A stretch of 64,000 bases of DNA from Flavobacterium tagetis (GTDB lineage Bacteria > Bacteroidota > Bacteroidia > Flavobacteriales > Flavobacteriaceae): NCBI RefSeq assembly GCF_016735615.1, contig NZ_JAERSF010000001.1, forward strand, positions 186,001 to 250,000. Reading direction: 5' to 3'. The notes beneath the pieces were generated by a model. The model saw only the letters and a list, made by a program, of their open reading frames with translations. It was not told the origin of the DNA and searched no databases. Numbering within the stretch: the stretch's first letter is position 1; each line of letters starts with the position of its first letter. The position numbers and the translations under genes are program-made. Below, one piece after another: positions 319 through 8,279 of the stretch.

Positions 319-352
319 AAAAGAGCTTCAGAAAAATCTGAAGCTCTTTTAT
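319..352. terminator. Strong bidirectional terminator
   Basis: A perfect 13-bp stem (319-331 with 338-350) around loop AAAAAT, ending in a T run on the plus strand and, through the flanking As, on the minus strand. It may close both the tRNA relic and the RiPP operon arriving from the right. Confidence 0.85.
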
Positions 353-447: not shown

Positions 448-2640
448 TTAATTTCCTAATTCCAATTGATTTTTAACTAATTTAAAATAATCAGCCTTAT
501 TTTTAACTAATTGCTCATGATTTCCAATCTCGGAAACCTGACCATTTTTAAGAACTATTATCTGATCAGCATTTTTAACAGTACTCAAACGATGTGCTAT
601 AATTAAAACCGTTTTCCCTCTAAAGAATTTTTGCAAATTATTATGAATATTTTTTTCATTTTCAGCATCTAATGCAGATGTTGCTTCATCAAAAAAAATG
701 TAATGTGGATCTTTATAAATAGCTCTAGCAATAAGAATTCTTTGTTTTTGCCCTCCTGACATCCCATTTCCAGAAGCTCCGATTTTGGTTTTATAACCTA
801 ATGGCAAGCTGTCTATAAAATGCTTAATATTTGCGACTTTGGCTGCATTTTCTAATCTTTCCATATTAATTTTCCGATCACCACAAACTATATTTCTTTC
901 TATCGTATCAGAAAATATAAAACCATCCTGCATGACAACTCCACAATTCTCACGCAAATTTTTAGGTGAAAGATTCTTTATATTCTCTGAATTAAATAGC
1001 ACATCTCCTTCTGTTGTTTCATAAAATTTTAATAGCAATTTCATTAAGGTAGTTTTCCCACTTCCACTTGAACCAACTATAGCTGTTATTTTTCCTTCTG
1101 GAATTATAAAATTAATATCCTTTAATACATAAGGAGATTTAGTCCCCTCATATTGAAATGAGACATTTTTCAAAAATATTGCCGAATTCTCGCTCCTAAC
1201 GAAGCATAATTGTCTATGATCTTTCTTTTCTTCTGTCTCATGATTTTGGACTTCATTCAAACGTTCTAAACTTAATTTTGCATCTTGCAATGAACGAAAA
1301 AAACTAACCAATTGACTAACTGGAGAATTCAACTGACCTACTATATAAGAAACACTTAATAATTCTCCTAAAGTCATTTTTCCTTTCACAACCAGAGTAG
1401 CCGCTAAGAAAGTCACAACAATATTTTTTATTTGATTTAAAAAATCAAAACCAGACATTTGAATTTGATCTAGTTTTAAAATTTTAATATTTATTTCAAA
1501 CAATTTTTTCTGAATAATTTCCCATTCATTACGCTTAAAATCTTCAAATTGATTGATTTTCATTTCTGTTACTCCATTGATTATTTCAAATATTGAGTCT
1601 TGATTTTCGCTACGTTGCTGAAATTTTAAGTAGTCTAATATTCTGCGTTTTTTTAACCAATAAAATGACCATGAAACAGAAACAATAGTTAGAAGTAAGT
1701 ATACCGCCAATATTAAAAAATCATAGTACCATAAAACCCCAAAAAAAACAGAAAATGTAATAATTGAAAAAAAAGTTAACAAACTCTGTGAAGTCAAAAA
1801 GTATTCTATTCTTTCGTTATCTTGAATTCTCTGATTAAAATCTCCCATCAATTTTGTTTCAAAAAAAAATATTGGCAACTCCAGTATTTTTTTTAGAAAA
1901 CTCGAGATTATTGTAATGCTTATTTTGGTTCCCATAAATAGCATTAACCAATTTCTAATTATATCAATTATGATTGAACCCAAAAACACTAGTAATTGTG
2001 ACAACAAAATAATACTTATAAAATTTAAGTCTTTTTTGTTTACTCCTTTATCTATTAAGTTTTGAGTAAGAAATGGAAAAATTAATGTTAAAACACTTCC
2101 TGATAAAATCAGGATAAACATATAAGATATTTGTTTTCTGTAAGGCTTTAAATAACCTAAGATATACTTTAAATCTAAATCATCATTCTTTGGTGGTATC
2201 AAGTTAAAAAATAATTCTGAAGGCTGTAAAAACAACAATATACCATCCTTTTCATCAGTGATCCAAGATTTTTTAAAAGTTTCTTCACGCAATTTAATAA
2301 GTCCATGTGCTGGATCGGCAATGTAGAAAGTTCTTTTTTTTGAATATCTATTTTTTGAAATCTTATATAAAACGACAAAATGATTTTGATTCCAATGAAG
2401 TATTACTGGAAATTCTTCTTGTTCTGCTAACAACTCATTAATAGATATTTTTGCTGCAAAACTTTCCAAGCCAATGGCATTTGCCGCTTCAACAATTCCT
2501 AATAAAGAAACTCCTTCACGTGTAATAAAGGAGTTTTTTCTAAGGTATTCTAATCCATATTTTTTACCGTAAAAACTTGTTATCATCGACAAACAAGCTG
2601 GACCACAATCCATCTGGTCTTTTTGTTTAACAAATTTCAT
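448..2640 (-). CDS. Peptidase-C39 ABC exporter of the RiPP operon
   Basis: A 730-residue peptidase-containing ABC transporter. Residues 1-135 are a C39 cysteine peptidase: the nucleophile is Cys12 in the DCGPAC motif, with His87 (NQNHF) and Asp109 (ADP) as the other active-site residues. Residues about 165-450 form the membrane domain. The ATPase follows: Walker A GSSGSGKTT at 523-531, signature MSGGQKQR at 627-634, Walker B with DEATSALD near 651-658. Proteins of this type cut leader peptides after a double glycine while exporting the core across the inner membrane, which matches the GG leaders encoded just upstream. Its ATG overlaps the stop of the maturase gene by one base (TAATG), so translation is probably coupled. 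No HlyD-type adaptor gene is present in this window. Confidence 0.93.
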   Translation of the reverse strand: MKFVKQKDQMDCGPACLSMITSFYGKKYGLEYLRKNSFITREGVSLLGIVEAANAIGLESFAAKISINELLAEQEEFPVILHWNQNHFVVLYKISKNRYSKKRTFYIADPAHGLIKLREETFKKSWITDEKDGILLFLQPSELFFNLIPPKNDDLDLKYILGYLKPYRKQISYMFILILSGSVLTLIFPFLTQNLIDKGVNKKDLNFISIILLSQLLVFLGSIIIDIIRNWLMLFMGTKISITIISSFLKKILELPIFFFETKLMGDFNQRIQDNERIEYFLTSQSLLTFFSIITFSVFFGVLWYYDFLILAVYLLLTIVSVSWSFYWLKKRRILDYLKFQQRSENQDSIFEIINGVTEMKINQFEDFKRNEWEIIQKKLFEINIKILKLDQIQMSGFDFLNQIKNIVVTFLAATLVVKGKMTLGELLSVSYIVGQLNSPVSQLVSFFRSLQDAKLSLERLNEVQNHETEEKKDHRQLCFVRSENSAIFLKNVSFQYEGTKSPYVLKDINFIIPEGKITAIVGSSGSGKTTLMKLLLKFYETTEGDVLFNSENIKNLSPKNLRENCGVVMQDGFIFSDTIERNIVCGDRKINMERLENAAKVANIKHFIDSLPLGYKTKIGASGNGMSGGQKQRILIARAIYKDPHYIFFDEATSALDAENEKNIHNNLQKFFRGKTVLIIAHRLSTVKNADQIIVLKNGQVSEIGNHEQLVKNKADYFKLVKNQLELGN

Positions 2641-3938
2641 TAACTTATTGCGTACATAAATTTATCCTTGATAATTTCGATTTTTTTATTTTCATCAAAG
2701 TTGTGAATACAATATTCTTTACCTTCATGTTCTATTGCTTGTTGTGAACATCCACCATTACAAATAGGCAATATTTTACAACTTAAACATGGTGGATTCT
2801 TAAATTTTGAATTCATTCTTTTTTCATATTTTTCATTCCATTCAATTGTGCCATCTTCATTTAGAACACCTTCCTTTGAAGCAGATTCAAAGTCACGAGC
2901 GGTACATTTGTAAACTTCACCATTGTAATTAATAGTTGCATGATTATTTTTGTCAGCATAACACGAATTGCGTACCGTATCTAGATTTAATCCTTTATAT
3001 ATCGAATTGAATCCTTTTTCTCTAAATAGATTAACAATCTTCTGAACATCATCATTAATATCTTTTTGTTCTTGCCAGACCTCATGAAATGAAAAGTTTA
3101 AATTTTTTTTATCTTCATCAGTTAGAATAATAAAGTCATCAATAATTAAATGTAATTTTTATATTGTTTCCTCAGAAATATTCAATCGTACACTTACTTT
3201 AAATTTATTTTTTAGACACAAATGAATGTTATTCACTATTTCGTCATAAGAGCCTTTTTCTTTAGAAACATATCTAACTTGATTGTGCCTTTCTCTATGT
3301 CCGTCCAATGTAATTTGAAAAAAGCTAACACCATTTATTCTGCAGCTATCTAACATTTCCTGATTAATAAGCAAGCCATTGGTCGTAAAACCAGATGAAA
3401 AATTGATATTTTTCTCTTTCATTTTAGGATAAATATTCTCCAATATTGGCTTAACAGTTTTGTCAAAATACAACAACGGCTCACCGCCAAACCAACTTAA
3501 ATGAAATGTTTCCATTTTTTTTCTTTCGGCAAGAATATTTTCAATTAATTTCACTACAGAAATTAAAGTTGTATTGGTCATCTTAGATGCTTTGATATGA
3601 GTTTCATAACAATACCAGCACTTAAAATTGCAATTCATTGTTGGATTAATCGTAAGCTGATAAAAAGTCTCATTATCAAAATCAAATTTTCTAGATAATT
3701 CTTTTACTTTTTCAATTTCATCTTCATCCTTATCTACTAAGAAACCTTTTTCAATCAGATGTGAATAAAATTCAGGATGGATTTCATTTAACTCTTCAAG
3801 ATTATTTTCTCTTACCGCAGCTAATAAAATTTCATGTAATTCGGGATCCAAAATTGTAAAATCATTAGCAAAAGCATTATATCCGATTTTTCTATCCTCG
3901 TAATTAAAAAATGAATTAAATTGACTATATTTCATCAT
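2640..3938 (-). pseudogene. Radical SAM/SPASM peptide maturase with one in-frame TAA
   Basis: The reading frame has 433 codons but is split by a TAA at 3159-3161 (codon 260). Before the stop are an N-terminal leader-binding-like region and a radical SAM core with Cys103, Cys107 and Cys110 in NCNFKCWYC, followed by WFGGEP. After the stop the same frame continues for 172 codons with a complete SPASM domain: the spacing is C-x13-G-x4-C, then C-x2-C-x5-C-x3-C, then a last Cys, all expected ligands for auxiliary iron-sulfur clusters. Such enzymes crosslink Cys or other residues in RiPP precursors. The frame ends at 2640 within the start codon of the exporter. No ATG gives a sensible restart after the TAA. 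It could be a recent nonsense mutation, a sequencing error, or a readthrough site. The family call is firm; functional status is open. Confidence 0.85.
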
Positions 3939-4003
3939 AATCTTTGAAAAGTTGGTGGTTATAATTCAATAACCACCATTTTTAAATTATTAATTGTATA
4001 CTT

Positions 4004-4198
4004 TTATGTGCATTGTATTTTATTTGTACAATCTCCATTATTACCTGTACAAATTCCATTTAAGCAAGTATCATTAGAATTCTCAGCATCTTTCTGTCCT
4101 CCTTTAATTTTACTTAATTGATCATCAGTAAGTGACGAAAACCCTCCCACAAATTTATCCTTATTAACAATCAGCCATGATTTTTTAAAATTTTCCAT
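4004..4198 (-). CDS. RiPP precursor 4 (GG leader, four-Cys core)
   Basis: A 64-residue precursor. The leader begins MENFKKSW and holds the motif GGFSSLTDDQLSKIKGG, which is shared with two neighbours. Cleavage after KIKGG would release a 30-residue core that starts QKDAE and contains four Cys (TCLNGIC, then GDC and QC). It resembles the GG-leader natural product precursors of Bacteroidota that pair with radical SAM maturases. It is the precursor gene closest to the maturase. The mature structure cannot be predicted from sequence. Confidence 0.85.
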   Translation of the reverse strand: MENFKKSWLIVNKDKFVGGFSSLTDDQLSKIKGGQKDAENSNDTCLNGICTGNNGDCTNKIQCT

Positions 4199-4217
4199 TT
4201 TACTTTATTTTTAGTTA

Positions 4218-4418
4218 TTAACAAGTCCCAGTATTATTACAAACACCTGGATTTCCACTTTTCGTACAATCATTTTCGTTTGTACAAACTGCGTTTGTGT
4301 CAGCAGCATCTCTTTGACCTCCTTTGATTTTCAATATTTGATCGTCACTTAAGGATTCAAAACCTCCATTGAATTTATTGCCGAAGACCTGTAATCTCGC
4401 ATTTTTAAAATTTTCCAT
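4218..4418 (-). CDS. RiPP precursor 3 (GG leader, four-Cys core)
   Basis: A 66-residue precursor. The frame is open upstream to 4448, but the start at 4418 gives MENFKNAR, which matches the start of precursor 4, so it is preferred. The leader contains GGFESLSDDQILKIKGG. The core starts QRDAA and carries four Cys, ending in NNTGTC. Leader identity with precursor 4 is high while the core differs, as expected if one maturase handles several products. Confidence 0.85.
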   Translation of the reverse strand: MENFKNARLQVFGNKFNGGFESLSDDQILKIKGGQRDAADTNAVCTNENDCTKSGNPGVCNNTGTC

Positions 4419-4434
4419 TTTAAGTCTTTTATTA

Positions 4435-4632
4435 TTAACAGCTACCATTTACGCAAGAGCCAACATTAGTTTCTCCTGGACAAGAACCATTTAAACAATT
4501 TGTATTTTGACACTCCGCATCCTTTTGCCCTCCATTAATTTTCCTCATCTGTTCTAACGATAGTGAAGAAAAACCACCTTTTAAAGCAAACTCATTGTTT
4601 CCTTTTGAATAAATTAATTTCGTTTTTTTCAT
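4435..4632 (-). CDS. RiPP precursor 2 (GG leader, five-Cys core)
   Basis: A 65-residue precursor. The leader starts MKKTKLIY and holds GGFSSLSLEQMRKINGG. The core begins QKDAEC and has five Cys, including CLNGSC and a closing CVNGSC that looks like an internal duplication of the same six-residue unit. A CLNGxC unit also occurs in precursor 4. The number of Cys is odd, so at least one would stay free or be used differently. Confidence 0.85.
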   Translation of the reverse strand: MKKTKLIYSKGNNEFALKGGFSSLSLEQMRKINGGQKDAECQNTNCLNGSCPGETNVGSCVNGSC

Positions 4633-4722
4633 TTTTTAATCAGTTTAAATTTATATTTAATAATTACTCACATAGCAACAAATATTTTATATTGTTTTAT
4701 AACAATCAATATTCGTAAGTGA

Positions 4723-4902
4723 CTACGAGCAAATTGTATTTGAATTGTATGAGCAATCGAATTGATTTACATTACATAAATTTTGCTCTTTTTCTTTTAT
4801 ACCTCCCTTAATCTTAATTAATTCTGATGGACTCAAAAAAGAAAAACCTCCTATTAGTATTCCATTCTTTTCAATCAATTTACTTTTTAAATCTTTTTTC
4901 AT
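4723..4902 (-). CDS. RiPP precursor 1 (short, divergent, three-Cys core)
   Basis: A 59-residue precursor with ATG at 4900-4902 and TAG at 4723-4725, short enough to be missed by a length cut-off. It starts MKKDLKSK and keeps the family leader pattern: GGFSFLSPSELIKIKGG. After GG the residue is Ile rather than Gln, and the core begins IKEKE with only three Cys (LC, DC, IC). It is the first precursor after the barrel gene, 29 bases downstream. Leader match and position support a real gene; the divergent core may mean a different product or a decaying copy. Confidence 0.8.
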   Translation of the reverse strand: MKKDLKSKLIEKNGILIGGFSFLSPSELIKIKGGIKEKEQNLCNVNQFDCSYNSNTICS

Positions 4903-4931
4903 AATTTCCTTATTTAATTATTTAATAAAAA

Positions 4932-7307
4932 TTAGTTTGCTCTTTGTATTTCTTCCTGGTTTCCAAGTTTTCGTTGTTTTACACCAATTTTATTACTTCC
5001 AATTTTGTATAATAATGAAAATCTCATACTTTGAGTATCTCTGTATTGCATAAAACTTTGATCAATATTATTTGAAGTGTAACGCATTGTTACTCGGTCA
5101 GATTTCAAAATATTAGTAAGTAGTAATGTTAACTGCAGTTTCTTGTCTAAGTAAAAATGCTTGAACGAAATATCAAGATTGGAAGCTGGAGATTTTTTTA
5201 CTTGCATAGACATTGATTGAAAATCATACCAATAAGCTCCTTCTATAAAAAATGTTTTTGCTTTGTTTGCAGTAAACGTATGGCGAGTTTCAAAACCTCC
5301 CCCTGCTCCTGAACCTGTAGCCTCTATTTCAGGTATATGACTTTTATACTCTACATAATAAAAATAAATACTAGAAACTGTAGACCATCGTTTGTTAAAA
5401 TCAAAATTTATAGATTCATCAAAATTTACTCTATTATAGTCGGCATAATTTTCCCATGTGGCTGTTTGAGTATTATCTAATTGTGGAATGTTAATTTGAC
5501 TAATATTATTTTTACCTATTGTATAACTAGCGGAGCTAGTAAAGATGCTTTTGTAACTATGTTTGATTTCTGCATTGTATACGAAAGATGGTTGTAAAAA
5601 AGGATTACCAAATACGTAACTATTTATGGAACTATATCTTCTCGCTGGATTTACATAATCATATCCTGGTCGATTAATTCTTCTGTTCAATGAAAATGAA
5701 AATGAATTATTTTCATTTACTGTATATGTTGCAAACAATGTTGGAAAAAACTTTGAATAGTTTTTTCGATTAGTTATATTTTCAGTAAGGACGACTCCCT
5801 TAGTTTGTGTGTTTTCGAAACGCAAACCAACTTTAAATTCCCATTTTTTTATTTTTTTGTTTGCTGAAAAATAAACGGCCTGAGTATTTTCTTGATAGTC
5901 GAATTGAGTTTCCTGATTAAAAACATCTTCATTAGCTATATTATCATAAAAAAGAAGATTCACAGCACTATTGGTATTAATAAAACTTAACTTACCTCCA
6001 TATTCATAATTTGCAAAATGACTTGGAATAGTAAAGTCAATTTTACCAGCATAATTTTTTATTTCGAGATTACCTTTATTAATGACATTATTATCCAGAA
6101 TGACATTATTGTCCTGATCAAGAATTATCGAATTGAATGGATTTATTTTGTCATTCTTATAAGTCAAATAATCTAAGTCAAAAGTCATTACTTTACCTTT
6201 ATCATTTAACTTAGTAACTCCATTTACATTTAAAGAAGATCTCGAATAGTCTATTTCAGAATTACCATTTGAAGCATAGATATTTTCCAGATCGCCTGTT
6301 TCTTTATTAGTCACAATAGAGTTACTGTAATCATAAATTGTCGGTTTATTTATCGCCCCAATGTATTGTACTCCAAGAGTGGTTTTATCTGTTACTTTAT
6401 AATTAAAAATAATTGTAGGTGTAATGAATGCTGTATTATTCACATTGTTTAAATACACATTCCAGAAGGATGACGGATAATTATATGTAATATAGTTGTC
6501 ATAAAGTGTTTTTGATTTATTAAATCCTAAATCGGCTAAAAAACTAATTCTCTTTTTTTGAAATGAAAAATTTGCTCCCATAATATCTGAAAAATATGTT
6601 GCTTGCTTCATTGTATTTCTCAGTGTCATGTTCCAACTATCATTTTTAGGCCTTTTTAATTTAATATTAATCAAACCACTATTCCCTTCTGCATCATACT
6701 TCGCCGGGGGAGTTGTAATGATTTCTATAGATTTTATATTGTCTGATGCAATTGATTTCAAGTAATTCACAAGATCCTCTCCAGAAAGCTGAATTAATCT
6801 GTCGTCTACCATCAATCCGACACCACTTTTACCTACCATAGAAACAGTTTCATTTTGTACGCGAATTCCGGGAGCAACTTTTAGTGCATCCAAAGCATCA
6901 CTGCCAGATGTGGCAACACTATTTTCTACATTAAAAACAAGTCTATCAACTTTTCGTTCAATAAGTTTTTTTTGAGATTTTACCATAACTTCATTTAACA
7001 TTTGTCTATTATCCATTATTCCAATAAATCCTAAATCAATATTATGATCGAGATTTATTTTTTTTCTCCATAAAAAAGCATCAAATTGTTTTATTTCCAA
7101 AATATAAGTCCCTGCATATGCATATAATATAAATTCTCCATTCCTATTAGTCATTTCACTTTTTATAGGAATTGAATCTTTGGTAACCAACAAAACTTCA
7201 GCTAGCTCAATGGGATTATTTTTAAAATCCACTACTTTTCCACTTATTTTTATTTGTGCGAACAAAGCTGAGCTATAAAAAAAAACAATCACTAATAATC
7301 TTATCAT
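4932..7307 (-). CDS. Outer-membrane beta-barrel protein heading the RiPP operon
   Basis: A 791-residue protein with a signal peptide (cut near LFAQ), a carboxypeptidase-regulatory-like beta-sandwich (about residues 20-95, starting ISGKVVDFKNN), a TonB-receptor plug-like region (about 105-220, with NSGLINIKLK) and a long beta-barrel rich in aromatic, Asn and Ser residues. This layout fits the OMP_b-brl_3 family of Bacteroidota, which look like TonB-dependent receptors but are often of unknown substrate. It is the first gene of the operon, 29 bases before precursor 1. It might export the peptide across the outer membrane, take it up, or serve in immunity; the sequence does not decide between these. 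C-terminal residues are polar (EEIQRAN). Confidence 0.85.
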   Translation of the reverse strand: MIRLLVIVFFYSSALFAQIKISGKVVDFKNNPIELAEVLLVTKDSIPIKSEMTNRNGEFILYAYAGTYILEIKQFDAFLWRKKINLDHNIDLGFIGIMDNRQMLNEVMVKSQKKLIERKVDRLVFNVENSVATSGSDALDALKVAPGIRVQNETVSMVGKSGVGLMVDDRLIQLSGEDLVNYLKSIASDNIKSIEIITTPPAKYDAEGNSGLINIKLKRPKNDSWNMTLRNTMKQATYFSDIMGANFSFQKKRISFLADLGFNKSKTLYDNYITYNYPSSFWNVYLNNVNNTAFITPTIIFNYKVTDKTTLGVQYIGAINKPTIYDYSNSIVTNKETGDLENIYASNGNSEIDYSRSSLNVNGVTKLNDKGKVMTFDLDYLTYKNDKINPFNSIILDQDNNVILDNNVINKGNLEIKNYAGKIDFTIPSHFANYEYGGKLSFINTNSAVNLLFYDNIANEDVFNQETQFDYQENTQAVYFSANKKIKKWEFKVGLRFENTQTKGVVLTENITNRKNYSKFFPTLFATYTVNENNSFSFSLNRRINRPGYDYVNPARRYSSINSYVFGNPFLQPSFVYNAEIKHSYKSIFTSSASYTIGKNNISQINIPQLDNTQTATWENYADYNRVNFDESINFDFNKRWSTVSSIYFYYVEYKSHIPEIEATGSGAGGGFETRHTFTANKAKTFFIEGAYWYDFQSMSMQVKKSPASNLDISFKHFYLDKKLQLTLLLTNILKSDRVTMRYTSNNIDQSFMQYRDTQSMRFSLLYKIGSNKIGVKQRKLGNQEEIQRAN

Positions 7308-7550: not shown

Positions 7551-7868
7551 ATGAATATCGGAGAAAACATTCGGAAGTATAGAAGAGAAAAAGATCTTAA
7601 AGCAGAGCAAATTTTTGAAGAGATAGGAATTAGTCAATCCACTTATTCGAAAATTGAAAACAATAGATGCAAAGTTGACATCGCTACTTTAATAAAAATA
7701 GCGTCAGTACTCAATATTGACGTCGTTGAATTATTGAGTATACCCAAAAAACCTGCAAAATATGATGAGTTAAATCTTTTAATAAAAACTCTGGAAGACA
7801 AAATAGTTTTACTGAAAGAACAGAACTTTTTATTGAAAGAAGAAATAGAAATACTTAAAAAAAAGTAG
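7551..7868 (+). CDS. XRE-family HTH regulator with C-terminal coiled coil
   Basis: A 105-residue protein with the start at 7551 (MNIGENIRK), chosen because the helix-turn-helix begins at once. The HTH spans about residues 5-62 (SQSTYSKIENNRCKV is the recognition region) and is followed by a Leu/Glu/Lys-rich coiled coil (about 72-104) that probably dimerises. It is divergent from the RiPP operon, separated by 243 bases, so it is a likely local regulator. Direct control of the operon is inferred from position only. Confidence 0.85.
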   Translation: MNIGENIRKYRREKDLKAEQIFEEIGISQSTYSKIENNRCKVDIATLIKIASVLNIDVVELLSIPKKPAKYDELNLLIKTLEDKIVLLKEQNFLLKEEIEILKKK

Positions 7869-7954: not shown

Positions 7955-8221
7955 TTAAACTGTAGTATTATTACAGCTGTAAATGTTTTTTGATACTGAT
8001 GCAATTGTAAATTGAGATTTTCTATTGATTTTTTCTTTCTTCTCAATATTTAAATATCCATAAAAATCAGAGAAAATAATTTGTCCTGATTTAGAAATTA
8101 ACACACTGCCATTAAATAGGTTATTTTTAGCCAGTGTTGAAAAGAAATCTTTTATCTCTTGTCCTGAAACACTACTTGTAAAAAGCAATGCTGTAAAATA
8201 AACAACGATTTGTTTTTTCAT
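7955..8221 (-). pseudogene. Frameshifted N-terminal fragment of a serine hydrolase
   Basis: The 88-codon frame has a signal peptide (ending VSGQ) and the start of a beta-lactamase-type serine hydrolase: GSVLISKSGQIIF, then the nucleophile motif SVSK. Right after SVSKN the frame changes to unrelated residues and stops. In another frame, starting at the six-A run, the sequence reads FTAVIILQF, which is what follows SxxK in this family, then stops too. So there is a one-base indel and a missing C-terminal part (a full protein is usually over 300 residues). A tetranucleotide repeat sits just before the start codon. It is very unlikely to be active. Confidence 0.8.
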
Positions 8222-8223
8222 TT

Positions 8224-8279
<56 letters not shown>

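Follow-up and report, generated by a model that had tools for sequence, protein, structure and literature searches.

A Flavobacterium operon for candidate Asn-Cys thioether peptides, with a C39 exporter and a TonB-dependent-transporter-type barrel

Several described systems each share part of their make-up with the locus reported here. In the streptococcal NxxcA/NxxcB system, which gives a beta-thioether ranthipeptide, a radical SAM enzyme carries a SPASM domain and Asn lies upstream of Cys; according to the accessible text of PMC8326336, NxxcA contains one thioether, joining Cys23 to the beta-carbon of Asn20. The Bacteroidales RiPP clusters in the accessible part of PMC10352776 combine precursors with a Gly-Gly (GG) motif, radical SAM enzymes, a C39 exporter and an outer-membrane protein. 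In 4 of 9 of these clusters a PCAT and an OMP were found but no MFP, three of these four with a radical SAM enzyme, and the four carry either YcaO (three) or LanM (one). The word 'TonB' is absent from the main text as accessible, and the question of how the outer membrane is crossed is raised in that paper as well. In graspetide loci the modifying enzyme is an ATP-grasp protein; the accessible portion of PMC8939145 includes pfam14905 (cluster 163) among the families of ATP-grasp loci, together with a TonB-receptor-related cluster (146) predicted to serve export. Finally, Oar of Myxococcus xanthus is a TonB-dependent transporter with a CarboxypepD_reg domain that is needed for PopC secretion, its substrate being a protease (accessible text of PMC6434023).

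The locus was observed in a window of 64,000 nucleotides, namely positions 186001-250000 of contig NZ_JAERSF010000001.1 in the 5.1-Mb genome of Flavobacterium tagetis. It comprises seven genes, all on the minus strand, at 448..7307 of the window, where six or seven co-directional genes had been predicted. In order of transcription these encode an outer-membrane barrel, four short precursors, a radical SAM/SPASM enzyme and a C39-ABC exporter. The barrel gene (4932..7307, minus strand; 791 aa) stands at the head of the operon, as had been proposed, and matches PF14905 at 264 bits (cut-off 27). The original prediction had also regarded such a barrel-led set as unfamiliar. This part stands less well, since the combination of a radical SAM enzyme, a C39 exporter and an outer-membrane protein is not new in itself (accessible part of PMC10352776) and pfam14905 is known from graspetide loci (accessible portion of PMC8939145). 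The likeness to NxxcA/NxxcB is one of description, not of NxxcB sequence: NxxcA has one ring with a spacing of 3, whereas several Asn-Cys pairs with spacings of 3-5 are predicted here, and, unlike that system, the operon has GG leaders with a C39 exporter, an outer-membrane barrel and a home in Bacteroidota. It also differs from the four Bacteroidales clusters in their YcaO or LanM, and from the graspetide loci, with which it shares pfam14905, in their ATP-grasp enzyme. Oar has the same set of TonB-transporter and CarboxypepD_reg domains as the corresponding barrel of Flavobacterium anhuiense, a comparison that is not based on sequence, and its protease substrate is unlike the peptide predicted here.

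With a probability of about 0.5, we read the locus as a RiPP operon with an Asn-Cys-linking maturase, C39 export and an outward-working barrel, the enzyme probably being inactive in this strain. The SPASM maturase would join the sulfur of each core Cys to an Asn three to five residues upstream, and the repeats in the cores would then yield small rings in series, one per Asn-Cys pair. Removal of the leader behind the second Gly-Gly and export of the peptide would fall to the C39 exporter, and the TonB-dependent-transporter-type barrel would likely carry the peptide over the outer membrane.

The same set of genes recurs in other Bacteroidota. Two samples were used, 199 genomes of the genus and 395 of the phylum (class), both including the own genome. 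Three other genomes of the genus have frames with GG and Cys, and in each of them barrel, maturase and exporter adjoin one another. Named genomes were then scanned with an alignment of the three intact genus maturases as the query, and the best 80 of 130 confirmed relatives, chosen by maturase similarity alone, were taken as loci (in 26 of the 80 a contig end truncates the locus). Among these best 80 of 130, a same-strand barrel was located upstream in 62, a same-strand C39 exporter downstream in 73, and both, in the order of the window, in 58. When any nearby position on the same strand was accepted, barrels were detected in 69 of the best 80 and C39 exporters in 76, which leaves 11 without a same-strand barrel. 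Since PF14905 genes are few per genome (10 in the own 5.1-Mb genome; 63 in 25 class genomes, own included), chance adjacency of a barrel is low.

Precursor frames were sought by a strict rule (40-120 aa, a Gly-Gly with at least two Cys behind it, at most 3.2 kb upstream, outside large frames). They were present in 72 of the best 80 of 130 loci (136 frames; 8 loci had none) and on the opposite strand in 0/80, while control stretches of equal length gave 1/62 loci far upstream and 3/65 far downstream. A first, loose rule was rejected as too lax: it found 153 frames in 77/80 loci, but also frames on the opposite strand in 19/74. The original prediction had asked whether precursors, barrel, maturase and exporter co-occur, and had named as its refutation precursors that never adjoin these genes. 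With strict precursors in 72 of the 80 loci and all three large genes in order in 58, it survived this comparison. Eight clusters of neighbouring genes were found in at least six loci. Three are the maturase, the exporter and the barrel; the others, namely LanB, HlyD, a protein of unknown type, an AraC/TPR regulator and a histidine kinase, were each assigned by scanning one to three members.

The maturase gene occupies 2640..3938 of the minus strand and is interrupted. A SPASM-type radical SAM enzyme had been predicted, which holds for the domains, both above cut-off: Radical_SAM (PF04055) at 66 bits (cut-off 29.5) in the N-terminal piece and SPASM (TIGR04085) at 46.6 bits (cut-off 27) in the C-terminal part. 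It does not hold for the frame, which on translation is split by an in-frame TAA at 3159..3161. The stop leaves an N-terminal piece (3162-3938) of 259 residues, with the radical SAM core and without SPASM, while the remaining 172 codons (2640-3158; searched on 2643-3155) continue behind it in the same frame, their first ATG, GTG or TTG being at 2816. The CX3CX2C motif (CNFKCWYC) and the SPASM domain are thus present in two pieces in the window and in a single intact frame in the relatives. A search of the genome at E up to 0.001 found no second SPASM enzyme able to replace the broken one.

Four intact relatives were compared with NCBIfam, and six families were matched at E up to 1e-30. TIGR04463 (rSAM_vs_C_rich) reached 159-169 bits against a cut-off of 525 and the PapB family (NF047865) 113-121 against 340; the CefB, Clo7bot, FlmE/OhkG and geopeptide maturase families were also far under cut-off. 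The SCIFF maturase profile TIGR03974 gave 74 bits (cut-off 425) with the N-terminal piece of the window alone and, at E up to 1e-30, no match to the four intact relatives. For the window itself, the named radical SAM RiPP families were rejected, with profiles under cut-off (N-terminal piece, best 25 of 73 families). The maturase thus appears to lie outside the named families that it matched. By sequence, the closest solved maturase is 5wgg (E 2.9e-16), which we take to be CteB, and 628 database proteins match the N-terminal piece at E up to 1e-60. Relatives P0009, P0059 and P0097 are among proteins of Flavobacterium psychrophilum, Riemerella anatipestifer and Ornithobacterium rhinotracheale.

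Three intact relatives of the maturase occur in the genus sample, and that of F. anhuiense is 95% identical to the N-terminal piece, with dN/dS values of 0.035 before the stop and 0.029 behind it. With intact relatives and a dN/dS near 0.03 to either side of the TAA, the gene was under strong constraint and the break is very recent, or else the stop is an error of sequencing or assembly; as the sequence stands, the maturase of this strain is likely inactive. The wider alternative, in which the whole locus is a decaying relic no longer used in this strain, stands at even odds in our judgement. It draws on the TAA, on the absence of any other SPASM gene at E up to 0.001 and on dN/dS for the first precursor, P1, of 0.78. 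Against it, the stop could be a sequencing error, and the low dN/dS around the stop, with the other genes open and constrained, means that any loss is recent. In the comparison with F. anhuiense, the remaining dN/dS values were 0.22 for the barrel, 0.048 for P2, 0.26 for P3, 0.055 for P4 and 0.084 for the exporter. Purifying selection on the small frames, by which the original prediction was to be judged, is thus supported for P2, P3 and P4, all well under 1, but not for P1.

At the distal end of the operon, the exporter gene (448..2640, minus strand; 730 aa) encodes the C39 exporter that had been foreseen: the peptidase domain PF03412 scores 114 bits (cut-off 22), and PF00664 (94 bits) and PF00005 (107 bits) are likewise above cut-off. 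An HlyD-like gene within 7 kb was not found in 64 of the best 80 of 130 loci, and 52 of the best 80 have a same-strand barrel and C39 exporter with no HlyD. Elsewhere in the own genome, C39 exporters are encoded at three further loci. Each of these adjoins an HlyD_3 protein, and no PF14905 gene was found in the 18 kb around it; in one of the three the C39 start is disrupted.

The barrel protein shows a signal-peptide-like start, an N-terminal domain (about 19-98), a plug (about 116-223) and a barrel (224-770). By profile, PF13620 (22.9 bits, cut-off 32.3) and Plug (16.1, cut-off 23.9) remain under cut-off, and CarboxypepD_reg is above cut-off in the F. anhuiense barrel and not in that of the window. 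An AlphaFold2 model from a 49-row alignment (pLDDT 85.3, pTM 0.74) has a plug inside a large beta-barrel, the hallmark of TonB-dependent transporters. The best PDB matches by Foldseek and VIA-align 2, a comparison that scarcely probes the N-terminal domain, are TonB-dependent transporters, including importers of siderophores, heme, copper and B12. The model therefore suggests a barrel of the TonB-dependent transporter type. A TonB-box-like LxEVx[VI], a loose pattern, precedes the plug in 26 of 49 barrels. In a FastTree phylogeny of barrels, 5 label changes were counted against 30.3 in shuffles. A single dedicated clade of operon barrels was recovered only in part, as two paralogues of the own genome fall inside it; no RiPP genes were recognised around these two.

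TonB-dependent transporters are known mainly as importers, siderophores and methanobactin being among their substrates. The proposal of an outward gate draws on the 64 of the best 80 of 130 loci in which a search for an HlyD partner gave none, on the HlyD_3 proteins beside the barrel-free C39 loci of the own genome, and on Oar, whose domain set is that of the F. anhuiense barrel and which is required for secretion. It does not simply replace HlyD, since 15 of the 16 loci with HlyD keep a barrel. The same retention, together with the importers among the fold matches and the capacity of Cys-rich peptides to bind metals, favours a different role after the same maturation, in which the barrel would be a receptor that takes the secreted peptide up again, for instance as a metal carrier or a signal. 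We consider this rather unlikely: no metal gene occurs among the eight neighbour clusters found in at least six loci, an Asn-Cys linkage would consume the thiols, and most loci would be left without an identified exit route. An outward barrel remains our preferred reading, although the direction is its weakest step: exit is scarcely more probable than uptake or protection.

Upstream of the maturase, the four precursor frames on the minus strand are P1 (4723..4902; 59 aa, 3 Cys; leader GGFSFL...KIKGG), P2 (4435..4632; 65 aa, 5 Cys), P3 (4218..4418; 66 aa from the ATG at 4418, or 76 aa if translation began at the ATG further upstream, at 4448; 4 Cys) and P4 (4004..4198; 64 aa, 4 Cys). The shared leader with GGFxxL and KI(K/N)GG, and the order of 3, 5, 4 and 4 Cys, were as originally described. 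For P4 the database gave a single relative, a hypothetical protein of F. anhuiense. Canonical GG leaders have a hydrophobic residue at -12, E, Q or D at -8 and hydrophobic residues at -7 and -4. Each of the four window precursors has two Gly-Gly sites and hence two candidate cleavage points; all four of these features precede the second site in all four precursors, against one of four at the first, and cleavage would accordingly be expected at KI(K/N)GG. In the loose set, 74 of 135 precursors with a Gly-Gly before the first Cys have one such site only, and Phe directly follows the first site in 114 of 135, by which GGF may be an enzyme-recognition motif in precursors of the window type.

A profile of the leaders, as had been suggested, matched in 3 of the 199 genus genomes. 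All 8 matches lie in these operons and are also rows of the profile, and no orphan precursors were found outside the three operons in the 199 genomes at E up to 0.001. At E up to 1e-4, the own genome was the only one matched among the 395 of the class. The profile missed a fourth genus genome (G098), whose precursors differ, and reached no independent loci, so that the search adds specificity and not reach. The class I lanthipeptide leader profile NF038153 (cut-off 22) gave 15.5 bits for P4 and 10.3 for P2, with P1 and P3 not among the matches listed. A lanthipeptide was rejected for the window, as this profile stays under cut-off and no LanB or LanC gene is among the operon proteins; so was a graspetide, as no ATP-grasp ligase is present among them.

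The arrangement of Asn and Cys in the cores was analysed next to these leaders. Cores were taken from the loose precursor set and, where possible, began behind the last Gly-Gly that precedes the first Cys; cores without Gly-Gly were dropped from the count over all loci, and those with fewer than two Cys from the one-to-one and end counts. In the shuffles, Cys were kept in place, and the one-to-one count uses each Asn once at -3 to -5 of a Cys. Over all loci (143 cores), Asn occurs at -3 to -5 for 376 of 519 Cys, above every shuffle (194.9 +- 9.7), although this and the other shuffle comparisons are not probabilities because related sequences are not independent. Counted one-to-one, 14 of the 16 Cys of the window have their own Asn (shuffles 8.0 +- 1.6), as do 191 of 230 in the window's maturase clade minus the window (98.6 +- 5.7), and with one precursor per locus the clade gives 80 of 99 (42.5 +- 3.9). 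Loci outside the clade, one precursor each, gave 95 of 154 (47.4 +- 4.7) with different best offsets.

Within the clade, the strongest combination of residue and offset is Asn at -4, with Asn at +2 next; the latter is this same residue counted from the Cys before it (CTNxGTC). Enrichment is also seen for Thr at +1 and for Gly at -2. In the four cores of the window alone, where counts are tiny, residues other than Asn score higher. Downstream, at +3 to +5, the excess of Asn is much smaller over all loci (208/519 vs 166.3 +- 9.1) and absent in the window (7/16 vs 5.8). The core ends favour an Asn that precedes its Cys: of 54 clade cores, 49 have an Asn upstream of the last Cys and 7 have one downstream of it, although the short tail behind it (median 2 residues in the clade) alone leaves little space for a downstream Asn. 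The first Cys has an upstream Asn in 39 of 54 clade cores and one at -3 to -5 in two of the four window cores. Core classes, which we set by patterns of our own, agree with the maturase tree (26 changes vs 47.9 in shuffles), and other clades carry different cores, such as NNCxGxNC, KCxC and CACAC, so that a single Asn rule fails for the family as a whole.

An Asn three to five residues before Cys corresponds to the geometry of the NxxC beta-thioether, from which serial Asn-Cys thioether rings are predicted; by this analogy the bond would be a thioether, placed at the beta-carbon. A product with alpha-carbon thioethers, as in sactipeptides, or with plain disulfides would compete with this prediction, and we regard it as unlikely. 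SPASM enzymes also form alpha-thioethers (accessible text of PMC8326336), 38 of the 54 clade cores have an even number of Cys, and two other C39 clusters of the own genome contain VKOR proteins and small Cys-containing peptides. Disulfides, however, would leave the spacing of Asn to Cys unexplained, the window has cores with 3 and 5 Cys, and no VKOR gene is among the operon proteins. The two clusters (L134, C1:838001-856000; L135, C1:936001-954000) each hold a C39 exporter, HlyD, a VKOR protein of about 520 aa and the small peptides.

The distribution of the operon is patchy, with the maturase in 4 of the 199 genus genomes, own included, and in 3 of the 395 of the phylum sample. Its closest named relative is in F. 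anhuiense RCM74. The operon genes are 77-94% identical in DNA between the two, and for the sequences that flank the operon in F. anhuiense the own genome offers nothing close (best 66-76% over 66-511 bases), which would fit a transfer of the operon as a unit between genomes. The label of one locus (L026) is Beijerinckiaceae, perhaps because its contig was mis-binned. The barrel dN/dS of 0.22 conceals a contrast between a diverged N-terminal domain and a nearly identical plug and barrel: against the F. anhuiense barrel (L011 6530-8938), the N-terminal domain shows 48 differences in 80 residues, the plug 6 in 108 and the barrel 35 in 547, and the N-terminal domain was likely swapped between close relatives. 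A self-protection or decoy role for the barrel, with the peptide as a bacteriocin against the TonB-dependent transporter of rivals, would suit the several different cores per operon, the patchy occurrence and the lack of another immunity candidate among the operon proteins scanned, but seems quite improbable, as it is the N-terminal domain that differs and the surface loops of this one pair show no arms race.

A description of this family was not recognised in the openly accessible literature searched, and neither the Asn-Cys code nor the breadth of the barrel-maturase-exporter unit was found in the accessible text of PMC8939145, PMC10352776, PMC8326336 and PMC6434023. The most far-reaching version of our reading, multi-ring Asn-Cys beta-thioether peptides throughout Bacteroidota, made by a maturase of an unnamed family and released in two steps by C39 and an Oar-like, TonB-driven exit that would be new for such peptides, is decidedly doubtful as a whole. 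We know of no peptide operon of which Oar is part. With the Asn-Cys pattern, a guess from a single operon becomes a testable sequence rule that states which Asn joins which Cys; if true, it would add to the thioether RiPPs a large maturase family with predictable products. The barrel, for its part, makes a neglected question testable, namely by what route Bacteroidota bring GG-leader peptides through the outer membrane where HlyD is not encoded nearby.

Variants of the operon were also observed. Same-strand genes of the LanB cluster, of whose 17 members 3 were scanned, occur in 13 of the best 80 of 130 related loci and not in the window. In L028, L031, L043, L045, L048, L052 and others, HlyD, a LanB-type dehydratase and a protein of about 290 aa (without a Pfam match in the L028 copy) lie between maturase and exporter or behind them. 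Such operons with an added LanB could possibly give double-modified peptides. One neighbour cluster, common to ten of the 80 loci, corresponds to an AraC/TPR regulator in F. anhuiense (one member scanned), and a histidine kinase cluster is found near the operon in L016, L035, L049, L054, L058 and L089, with a LytTR response regulator in several (L016 scanned).

At the borders of the operon in the window, a Bacteroidota -33/-7 promoter, sought upstream of the barrel by a consensus, was not found. Beyond the exporter, a perfect 14-bp inverted repeat with a T run (319..350) forms a terminator-like end. A tRNA-Met lies directly behind the operon (155-301 region), with a short imperfect partial copy at about 281-301; this remnant was not convincing as an integration site (local score 22 vs a shuffled maximum of 21). 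On the other side, an HTH_3 (XRE-type) regulator gene (7551-7868) is divergent from the operon, and about 12 TGAT units at 8231-8278, possibly a phase-variable repeat, immediately precede the start of a short frame on the minus strand (7955-8221).
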